64,000 nucleotides of DNA, from the NCBI RefSeq assembly GCF_001551835.1, contig NZ_LODL01000039.1, forward strand, positions 1 through 64,000, given 5' to 3'. Shown here in pieces: positions 48,833 to 51,847 of the stretch (position 1 is its first letter; each line of letters starts with the position of its first letter). The notes beneath the pieces were generated by a model. The model worked only from the letters and a program-made list of their open reading frames with translations. It was not told where the DNA came from and did no database searches. The translations under genes were made by a program, and so were the position numbers. This DNA is from Dechloromonas denitrificans. Its GTDB lineage: Bacteria > Pseudomonadota > Gammaproteobacteria > Burkholderiales > Rhodocyclaceae.

Positions 48833-49937
48833 ATGGACGCGGAACACATCAACAGCATCGCCAACAAGCTCGACGACATCGCGCAGCGCGCGGCCGAGCT
48901 GCGGAGGTATCTTTGACTACGATCAGAAACGCGAGCGCCTGACCCTTCTCAATCTGGAGATGGAAGATCCCAAGATTTGGGATGACGCCAAACGTGCCCA
49001 GGAACTGGGCCGCGAAAAGAAATCGCTGGAAGACATCGTGCTGGTGCTGGAAGAAGTCCAGGCCGGGCTGGAGGACGGCCGCGAACTGTTCGCCATGGGC
49101 AAGGAAGAAAGCGACGACGACACGCTGCTCTCGGTCGAAGCCGACAACGCCCCGCTCGAGGAAAAGATCGCCGCCCTCGAATTCCGCCGCATGTTCAACA
49201 ACCCGTCCGACCCGATGCCCTGCTTCCTGGAAATCCAGGCCGGCGCCGGTGGGACCGAAGCCCAGGACTGGGCTTCGATGCTGTTGCGCATGTACCTGAA
49301 ATATGGCGAAAAGAAGGGGTTCACCGTCGAGGTCATGGAAGAGTCGGAAGGCGATGTCGCCGGCCTGAAGAGCGCCACCGTCAAGTTCACCGGCGACTAC
49401 GCCTACGGCACGCTGCGCACCGAGACCGGCATCCACCGCCTGGTCCGCAAGTCGCCGTTCGACTCCAACGCCCGCCGCCACACCAGCTTCACCTCGGTGT
49501 TCGTCTTTCCGGAAGTCGATGACTCGATCGAGATCAACATCAATCCGGCCGATGTCCGCACCGACACCTACCGCGCTTCCGGCGCCGGCGGTCAGCACAT
49601 CAACAAGACCGACTCCGCCGTCCGCCTGACCCACGTCCCGACCGGCATCGTCGTCCAGTGCCAGAACGACCGTTCGCAGCACCGCAACCGCGACGAAGCC
49701 TGGCAGATGCTGCGCGCCCGCATCTACGAGTTCGAACTGCGCAAGCAGCAGGCCGAACAGCAGAAGCTGGAAGATGCCAAGTCCGACATCGGCTGGGGCC
49801 ACCAGATCCGTTCCTACGTGCTCGACCAGAGCCGCATCAAGGATCTGCGGACCAACCACGAAACCGGCAACACCCAGGCCGTGCTCGACGGCGACCTCGA
49901 CCCTTTCATCGAGGCCAGCCTGAAACAGGGCGTATAA
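48833..49937 (+). CDS. prfB: Peptide chain release factor 2 (programmed +1 frameshift)
   Basis: RF2 terminates translation at UGA and UAA. The first 27 codons (48833-48913) end at an in-frame TGA (48914-48916); skipping one base and reading from 48915 continues through the whole protein, giving 367 residues. The stop-codon recognition tripeptide SPF lies in [14 protein letters not shown] and the peptidyl-transferase motif GGQ in [16 protein letters not shown]. The shift site (GGAGGTATCTTTGAC) is the standard autoregulatory signal: low RF2 leads to frameshifting and more RF2. Confidence 0.95.
48902..48917 (+). promoter_or_regulatory. RF2 programmed frameshift site
   Basis: Internal Shine-Dalgarno GGAGG three bases before the slippery CTT-TGA-C. 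It has the same arrangement as the well-studied enterobacterial prfB site; the CTT codon slips to TTT in the +1 frame. Confidence 0.93.
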
Positions 49938-49955
49938 CCTCCACCGGAGAAAGCC

Positions 49956-51182
49956 ATGCGACTTGTCGACCTCAGAATAAGCCACTATAAAAGTCTGTCA
50001 GACATTGCGTTAACTGACATTCAGCCGGTAACGGTGTTAGTTGGCTGCAACGGAGTCGGCAAGAGCAACGTGGCAGATGCCCTGCGCTTTTTGCGCGATG
50101 CGATGAGTCAGGGACTAGATCATGCCGTCAGCACGCGCGGCGGCATTGGCCTGATTCGCCAGTATTCGCCAACCAAGCCATTTCAGATTTCATTCGACTT
50201 TGGCTTTGCCGAAAAAAATAATCCGTCACACACCGCTCGTTATCAACTAACACTGACCAGCTTGCGCGAAGGTAACTTTCGCGTTGAGCGAGAGCGTTGT
50301 GAATGGTTTGGTCCAACAGGTATTTCCTTCAGTGCTGACGATGGAGAAATCGTTGACTGCGATTTCGAAGAAATGCAAGCCGAACGAAATGCTCGGGGTC
50401 TCGTAAGTCTCAAGGTAGCTGGAAATTCAGTCACATTAGACGACGAGCGTCTATTTCAGCCTGACGCTTTAGCATTTGGTAGCCGCCTAACTTGGCTTGA
50501 TATGGCTGATATACATTTTGGTCCTCAAAAATTACGCGACTCTGTTCTTAATTTTCGATTCTCGGCGATCTACCCCAACACTCTGCGCCAACCAGCACCA
50601 CCCGACACCGACCCAATCCTCAAGGAAAACGGCGCTAATTGGGCCTCCATCCTGCGCACCCTAAAAAAGACCAGTCGCGGCAAACAGGCTTGGGAGCAGA
50701 TCAGGGAGATGATGGAGATTGTCATGCCACAACTGGAAGACATCACCACACAAGCGGTAGGTGGTTTCATCATGCCTCGCTTCAAAGTGCGCGAAGCCAG
50801 CGGCGAGGCGCACCTATTCGACCCGTCGCAGATTTCCGACGGCACCCTGCGAATCCTCGGCATCCTGCTCGCCCTCTACCAGACACCGCATCCCTCGCTG
50901 ATGATCATTGAAGAACCCGAACAAACAGTCAACCCGGCCCTGCTTGCATTGCTGGCAGACGCTTTCCGGGAGGTCTCAGAACGCACGCAACTGCTTATTA
51001 CAAGCCATAGTCCGCACCTCATCGACTGTTTCGAGCCGGAAAATATCCAAGTTGTCGCCATGCAAAACGGTGAAACTCGCATCTCGCCAATCCGCGCAAG
51101 CCAGCGGGAAGCGGTCAAGGAACACCTTTTGAGTCTTGAGCAGATAATGTCCTCTGAAGGCTTGTTGCCGGAGGATGCATGA
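49956..51182 (+). CDS. AAA family ATPase (AAA_21, OLD-like) of a two-gene module
   Basis: A 408-residue ABC/SMC-type ATPase as in OLD-family defence proteins: N-terminal RLVDLRISHYKSLSDIAL, Walker A VGCNGVGKSN (about residues 30-38), a central insert without clear motifs, ISDGTLRILGILLAL (signature-like), Walker B SLMIIEEPEQTVNP and the H-loop LLITSHSPHLID. There is no fused TOPRIM domain; the overlapping downstream gene supplies one. The ribosome binding site GGAGA precedes the ATG. Base composition drops sharply compared with prfB before it and the gene at 51.8 kb after it, indicating recent acquisition. Confidence 0.88.
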   Translation: MRLVDLRISHYKSLSDIALTDIQPVTVLVGCNGVGKSNVADALRFLRDAMSQGLDHAVSTRGGIGLIRQYSPTKPFQISFDFGFAEKNNPSHTARYQLTLTSLREGNFRVERERCEWFGPTGISFSADDGEIVDCDFEEMQAERNARGLVSLKVAGNSVTLDDERLFQPDALAFGSRLTWLDMADIHFGPQKLRDSVLNFRFSAIYPNTLRQPAPPDTDPILKENGANWASILRTLKKTSRGKQAWEQIREMMEIVMPQLEDITTQAVGGFIMPRFKVREASGEAHLFDPSQISDGTLRILGILLALYQTPHPSLMIIEEPEQTVNPALLALLADAFREVSERTQLLITSHSPHLIDCFEPENIQVVAMQNGETRISPIRASQREAVKEHLLSLEQIMSSEGLLPEDA

Positions 51183-51778
51183 GACGCCTGCTGCCAATCG
51201 TAGAGGGGCATGGCGAAATCCCGGCTGTTCCCATCCTCATTCGGAACATCCTTGCCACCCGAGGCATTCACGATGTGCAGCCTCTGTCCGCTTGGCGTCA
51301 TGGTGAATATCCAAGTGTCGCCAAGAAATTTGACAGCATATTCCTGGCTGCCATCAAGGAGAATGCCCCTATTCTGTGGGTCATGGATTTCGACTCGAAA
51401 GACCACGACTGTCCGGTCAAGGAAGAGCAGAATCTGTTGGCCAGAGCAGAATCACTACGCCCCGGCTGGCCGATAAAAATTGCTTTTCTTGTCAAGGAAT
51501 ATGAAACCCTGTTCTTGATCGACGAAACTGCTACCCGCAAAGTCTTTCCGGATATTCCTGCAAAAACCTCCTTCCCCGAAAACCCTGAAAATATCCGAGG
51601 CGCCAAGGAATGGCTCAGCAAAGCGCGCCCGTCGTCGGGATCGGCCTACAAGGAAACCGTTCACCAAGCAAAAATCACCGCGCACCTCAATTTCGAGTTG
51701 TTACGCGCCCGTTCTTCCGATTTTGCACACCTTGAACGAGCTGTTGTAGAACTCGCAAATTCAGCAGTCCCTTTATAA
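51179..51778 (+). CDS. DUF4276 family protein, TOPRIM-like putative nuclease
   Basis: A 199-residue protein of the DUF4276 type. The N-terminus PIVEGHGEIPAVPIL has the glutamate expected of a TOPRIM fold and WVMDFDSKDHDC supplies the D-x-D pair; a later region with FLVKEYETLFL is also typical. It overlaps the ATPase gene by four bases (ATGA). By analogy with OLD, Gabija and PARIS ATPase-TOPRIM pairs I infer a nuclease or nuclease-like effector controlled by the ATPase. No experimental role is known to me for this exact pair. Confidence 0.75.
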   Translation: MRRLLPIVEGHGEIPAVPILIRNILATRGIHDVQPLSAWRHGEYPSVAKKFDSIFLAAIKENAPILWVMDFDSKDHDCPVKEEQNLLARAESLRPGWPIKIAFLVKEYETLFLIDETATRKVFPDIPAKTSFPENPENIRGAKEWLSKARPSSGSAYKETVHQAKITAHLNFELLRARSSDFAHLERAVVELANSAVPL

Positions 51779-51847
51779 GCAATTTGCCTTGTTTTTTGCA
51801 TTGCCTCTTTGCATTGAAAAAATGGCTTGTTGGTTGGAAAAATCCCT

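Follow-up and report, generated by a model that had tools for sequence, protein, structure and literature searches.

Two adjacent genes of Dechloromonas denitrificans, encoding an ABC/OLD-type ATPase and a DUF4276 protein, belong by their model matches to a catalogued but little-studied candidate defence type, HEC-01, and are not new in kind; the recurrence of their close family directly behind prfB, the gene for release factor 2 (RF2), is new here. We lean modestly towards reading the pair as an anti-phage module of the HEC-01 type that was acquired into the interval separating prfB from the gene after it, would be expressed from the prfB transcript, and would act by abortive infection in a manner similar to PARIS. 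The features of this region in the window, i.e., the whole stretch of 64,000 nucleotides that was analysed, are as follows.

48833..49937, + strand: prfB (release factor 2), left flank and presumed promoter source, from ORFs and sequence
49938..49955, + strand: 18 nt separating the start of the ATPase gene from the stop of prfB
49956..51182, + strand: ATPase gene, 408 aa, ABC/OLD-type, HEC-01A, with AAA_21 and PADLOC HEC-01A matches
50160..50567, + strand: hypervariable module of the ATPase, residues 69–204, from divergence against two congeners
51179..51778, + strand: DUF4276 gene, 199 aa, HEC-01B, TOPRIM-like, with PF14103 and PADLOC HEC-01B matches
51779..51847, no strand: 3′ tail of the insert, resembling by eye the tail in genome G061, as far as the next gene's start codon
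51848..53083, + strand: 411-aa gene, right flank, adjoining prfB at many empty sites

The gene pair and its relation to known ATPase–TOPRIM systems

Reading of the ORFs bears out the coordinates given in the original prediction, as well as the overlap of the two genes by ATGA (51179–51182), and all the motifs named there are present (Walker A GCNGVGKSN, Walker B MIIEEPEQ, the TSHSPH stretch, VEGHGE, and DFDSKDHD). The search against Pfam and defence models that had been proposed as a check returned matches for both proteins. The ATPase matches AAA_21 at 2.5e-36, with HEC-01A as its best PADLOC model (PDLC04178, 3.5e-88, residues 3–407), and the second protein matches DUF4276 (PF14103) at 7.6e-10, with HEC-01B as the best model (PDLC04196, 3.3e-36, residues 1–193). 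The pair is thus not an unrecognised system. Lys36 and His351 of the ATPase are invariant in 10 aligned relatives.

HEC stands for Hma-embedded candidate, and a 2024 preprint is cited for antiviral activity of several HECs (PMC12988326); HEC-01 is listed among predicted systems (PMC12724379). The A and B models cover nearly the full length of the window proteins, and the genes are adjacent and overlapping, although the HEC-01B match is weaker than that of a protein from Dechloromonas sp. H13 (1.4e-76 in PADLOC), and the window copy lies not in an Hma, restriction, or defence locus but between prfB and the 411-aa gene. Embedding in an Hma or other defence locus is the way in which the HEC class was found, and is not known to be required of its members.

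PARIS also carries its ATPase and TOPRIM on separate genes (PMC10568477), with AriA detecting a phage protein and AriB cutting host tRNA (PMC12839542, PMC12409363). The window pair shares with it an ABC/OLD-type ATPase and a TOPRIM-like protein encoded by separate neighbouring genes, and the AriA model matches the ATPase at 7.7e-34, although HEC-01A scores far better. In turn, DUF4276 is a different family than AriB, and no AriB model is found among the 7 PADLOC matches at E up to 1. With the layout of PARIS and another TOPRIM-like family, the pair may work like PARIS without being PARIS. OLD nucleases and GajA of Gabija have in common with the pair the ATPase core and the remote TOPRIM relationship described below, but in the window the TOPRIM-like part is a separate ORF rather than a C-terminal fusion to the ATPase, and none of the 7 Pfam matches of the ATPase is to a TOPRIM family. 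A GajB-type helicase is not adjacent, the neighbours being prfB and the 411-aa protein, which has no Pfam match at 1e-5. The AbiLi model of AbiL matches the ATPase at 2.3e-23, but no AbiLii model in PADLOC matches the second protein.

The evidence for a TOPRIM relationship of DUF4276 comes from profile comparison. In 28 aligned members, Glu9, Gly10, Asp70, Glu107, and Glu109 are invariant, and position 72 is Asp or Glu. Aligned by hhalign with 13 OLD TOPRIM domains, drawn from 18 PF20469 matches, the 28-member profile reaches a probability of 52, an E of 1.4e-4, and a score of 32, compared to 16.7 for the best of 100 column shuffles, 14.7 for the reversed profile, and 15.3 for the ATPase profile; this supports the ATPase–TOPRIM pairing of the original prediction. 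Restoring two of the five left-out TOPRIM rows (one without DxD in its second motif) gives a score of 30.7 and an E of 2.3e-4, and the five-member DUF4276 alignment alone scores 26.2. Glu9 falls on the TOPRIM glutamate, and Asp70-x-Asp72 on the DxD of OLD TOPRIM. With Pfam TOPRIM models, only 1 of 10 DUF4276 members touches one, at an E of 0.17, and comparison with solved structures by sequence yielded no credible relative (best E 0.32, a designed protein). These profiles support, but do not prove, a remote TOPRIM relationship with the catalytic Glu and DxD in place, and we infer that the DUF4276 protein is the nuclease effector. A literature search by the names DUF4276 and PF14103 found no paper.

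Alignment of DUF4276 with OLD TOPRIM domains, as well as matches of the ATPase profile to the chains of TsOLD (6p74, 1.6e-15), PtuA, and GajA, would also fit a split OLD-type DNA nuclease, in which a constant complex cuts phage or plasmid DNA directly, with no abortion of the cell. OLD-like DNA cutting of this kind is the main rival of the PARIS-like reading, and we regard it as rather unlikely. OLD domains were the sole TOPRIM set compared, so the alignment expresses no preference for OLD over AriB or RNase M5, and DUF4276 is a separate Pfam family encoded by a separate gene. Being of another family and remote from OLD TOPRIM, it does not bear out the earlier OLD-type identity.

The most variable region of the ATPase comprises residues 69–204, where the window protein differs from either congener in 38% of its amino acids, compared to 4–6% in residues 1–68 and 205–408. 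At four-fold sites the corresponding divergence is 0.51–0.57 in the module and 0.24–0.48 in the flanking parts of the ATPase. Between the two congeners themselves (G061 and G021), the module differs in 29% and the rest in 6% of amino acids, with four-fold values of 0.40 and 0.32–0.36. The excess of the module is thus mostly in amino acids. Residues 69–204 are plausibly a sensor exposed to shifting selection; a possible alternative explanation is relaxed constraint. In the ATPase from Sphaerotilus most of this module is missing.

Distribution and acquisition of the pair behind prfB

At an E of 0.001, the DUF4276 protein was matched in 5 of 76 genomes, that of the window included, and a scan of public genomes identified the relatives as Azonexus and Dechloromonas. 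The stretch 3′ of prfB could be read in 69 of the 75 other genomes (the shortest being 492 nt); G017, G038, G044, G063, G068, and G070 had no usable prfB 3′ end. A complete pair follows prfB directly in two of the 69 (G061 and G021), a remnant in one (G024), and neither in the other 66, where the next gene is the 411-aa gene (34 loci), a cupin gene (15), or others (17). The pair is thus accessory in the genus. The remnant in G024 (L059/L188) consists of ATPase residues 1–61 and, after them, fragments from the second half of DUF4276; neither the 411-aa gene nor the cupin gene was found at that locus. In the interval as compared among relatives, conservation of the pair in all of them with host-like composition was not found.

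The original prediction had placed the pair between prfB and lysS. While prfB does adjoin it, lysS is not the next gene, as the 411-aa gene and a cupin gene intervene. In G010, the nearest relative when prfB and lysS are combined, the 411-aa gene starts 23 nt after prfB, so the insert can be delimited by the prfB stop and the start of the 411-aa gene. The pair is AT-richer than both flanks, as had been claimed: its GC content is 52.3% in the ATPase gene and 51.8% in the DUF4276 gene, compared to 62.5% in prfB and 72.2% in the gene downstream, and GC3 is 55% in the pair. For lysS and the two genes adjoining the pair, GC lies at 62–72% and GC3 at 85–87%. In G061 and G021, the GC content of the pair is 52–56%. 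A promoter-like match at 51814–51843, at the 3′ end of the insert and facing the 411-aa gene, is a consensus match only and may be due to chance. Rfam, at the gathering score, gave no matches in the window.

When 35 sequences of the 411-aa protein are arranged in a midpoint-rooted tree, the window groups with G010, G061 with G049, and G021 with G018 and G027, and all of these partners have empty sites. The tree of lysS (31 sequences, G061 and G021 being absent) again places the window with G010, and G024 elsewhere. Across genera the divergence of the pair tracks that of prfB, but a purely vertical origin was rejected, since the three holders each group with empty-site relatives; acquisition of the pair is supported by this grouping and by the patchy presence in the genus. 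An intergenic core, GGTGAGTCA, is common to 12 of 34 empty sites, including the 11 empty-site relatives counted in the G061 clade, which disfavours vertical origin with repeated deletion, as deletions would hardly restore a shared core.

The window and G061 have a similar tail between DUF4276 and the start codon of the next gene, yet they are not sisters, which points to one inserted segment moved by recombination in conserved flanks. The end of prfB touching the insert in G061 is enriched in differences, with 26 of 200 positions against 32 of 817 elsewhere in comparison with G014 (raw p 8e-6), and 17 of 200 against 36 of 817 in comparison with G049 (raw p 0.03). The end of the 411-aa gene touching the insert differs from that of G049 in 28 of 200 positions against 65 of 1042 (raw p 4e-4), whereas in the control pair G049–G014 the same end-versus-rest tests give p of 0.11 and 0.8. 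Such a sign of co-import is seen in G061 only, tests of the window and G021 flanks giving p of 0.05–1, with the 0.05 in the opposite direction. Direct or inverted repeats above 8 nt were not present at the insert ends in six loci. When the window is compared with either holder, the pair is more diverged at four-fold sites than its flanks are; in the comparison of G061 with G021, the ATPase (0.36) is slightly under the 411-aa gene (0.39). With divergence mostly above the flanks, no very recent transfer is indicated among the three.

Recent carriage by plasmids or phages is unsupported. A scan of viral contigs with DUF4276 gave no confirmed relative among 88 stretches, and searches of plasmids and phages yielded three Streptomyces records (25–28% identity) and one record (30%), respectively.

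Close relatives, wider family, and other genes at the site

Further holders were found in Zoogloea (66% identity) and Sphaerotilus (49%) by a scan of named genomes, and in G197 by a search of the order, and in all three the ATPase starts behind prfB. The ATPase is separated from the prfB stop by 18 nt in the window, G061, and G021, 29 nt in Zoogloea, and 28 nt in Sphaerotilus and G197. Thus, seven of the eight close members (~45% identity or more, four genera, the G024 remnant included) lie directly 3′ of prfB in the same orientation, although the eight are not independent draws, as some may share one insertion. The eighth, G388, adjoins an ABC-F-like gene, by eye EttA. G505, which comes next in similarity with 40% in the ATPase, also lies beside an ABC-F-like gene. 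These ABC-F-like neighbours of the two nearest members away from prfB (L121:3605-5272 and L127:4106-6103) are two cases, noted post hoc.

The DUF4276 protein of Zoogloea (L102:7001-7573) has an unrelated C terminus, probably due to a frameshift, and the DUF4276 frame of G197 looks broken. These second genes, together with the G024 remnant, suggest that loss can be survived, which argues against a toxin–antitoxin-like addiction cassette that would punish loss and provide phage defence as a by-product. Such a cassette would explain the overlapping genes, the patchy presence, and the fixed site, but we consider it distinctly improbable.

Matching genomes at 1e-6 numbered 18 of 395 sampled in the family, 7 of 399 in the order, and 4 of 398 in the phylum, and at 1e-10 they numbered 3 of 369 in the class, the window genome being counted each time. 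In the small families of G197 and G388, one of four and one of nine genomes match, these being G197 and G388 themselves. None of the 31 distant loci (3.5 to 14.6 kb each, with L129, L164, and L165 partial or short) contains prfB. A second, divergent HEC-01 pair is present in the genome of the window itself (L099:4785-6526, contig C21), where it is preceded by a gene for a type I methyltransferase and by what is probably its specificity gene. With a threshold of 1e-10, PADLOC models were matched by all eight neighbouring proteins picked from six loci of the wider family, the models being those of type I, type III, type IIG or DrmMI, DrmD, and restriction-type systems (REase_II, PD-T4-1); the proteins were chosen for their defence-like look, with L153 and L155 left out, and are an illustration rather than a rate. 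This restriction-gene setting is that of the wider family, the neighbours of prfB-linked copies having been scanned in part in G197, Zoogloea, and the window. The earlier proposal of a defence role is supported by these neighbours, as well as by the HEC-01A and HEC-01B matches.

The same data bear on whether the pair could serve release factor 2, or translation, as a housekeeping accessory that stays next to prfB for functional reasons and not for defence. The position of seven of eight close members, and the ABC-F-like genes next to G388 and G505, would agree with such a role, but the pair is absent from 66 of the 69 congeners read, its GC content is unlike that of the host, and its wider family stands beside restriction genes, making this explanation very improbable.

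The original prediction had also proposed an insertion hotspot, for which there is some support. Among 93 ORFs scanned within ~2.6 kb or less 3′ of prfB, from the 32 loci that lack both the pair and the 411-aa gene, G065 (L034) stands out in having Cas1 (1e-152) and Cas4 (5.8e-78, PADLOC) behind prfB, together with a 37-nt repeat present in two exact copies and a partial one.

L034: 387-567, 1042-2130, 2072-2719, facing prfB: Cas1/Cas4 genes and short repeat array of G065

In G197, JetA of Wadjet (2.6e-185, L122:2069-3511) lies behind the prfB-linked pair, and in Zoogloea a JetC-like SMC protein is encoded 3.3 kb further downstream (L102:10914-13715). On the other hand, most congeners scanned have ordinary genes there, the commonest Pfam families in the 93 ORFs being of the lysyl-tRNA synthetase type, nucleoside-gate, AcrB, and two-component. 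Kinase-type models (PD-T4-6, mad6) were also matched among these ORFs in PADLOC. Past the 411-aa gene, ORFs were inspected visually, and in some of the loci only. From these matches, the site behind prfB appears to accept defence genes now and then.

Proposed function and the link to prfB

In the PARIS-like reading that we favour, the ATPase would assemble with the TOPRIM-like protein and hold it, and residues 69–204 would recognise a phage trigger. The trigger would activate or release the DUF4276 nuclease, which would then cut nucleic acid, the probable target being host RNA, for instance the tRNA that AriB cuts in PARIS, and the infection would abort. The link to prfB would reflect targeted spread, in which homologous recombination between species would be anchored in the 3′ end of the highly conserved prfB, which would also supply transcription.

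The linkage may be such an anchor and promoter only, or it may carry a function. The prfB gene contains a programmed +1 frameshift site (AGGTATCTTTGAC) immediately before position 48918, and this site is present in all eight prfB genes inspected, six of which adjoin an intact or broken pair, one a remnant, and one an empty site. We can speculate that this branch of HEC-01 is a downstream cistron of frameshift-controlled RF2, its dose following the termination state and its nuclease acting on the translation machinery. With RF2 scarce, ribosomes would shift frame and read through prfB, and transcription would reach the pair; with RF2 ample, an early stop at UGA would leave ~1 kb of prfB unread, and polarity would silence the pair. 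That prfB precedes seven of the eight close members, and that the two nearest exceptions adjoin ABC-F-like genes, fits a functional position but is no proof of it, and we hold this reading to be improbable. Judged by titles and abstracts, a literature search returned no report of a link between prfB and defence.

If the favoured interpretation is right, several genera carry a two-gene defence cassette recurrently at a single housekeeping locus, and, with no integrase or end repeats seen, searches built around islands would tend to overlook such a setting. The analysis also proposes a TOPRIM relationship for DUF4276, and the possible coupling of defence to the RF2 frameshift switch is directly testable.
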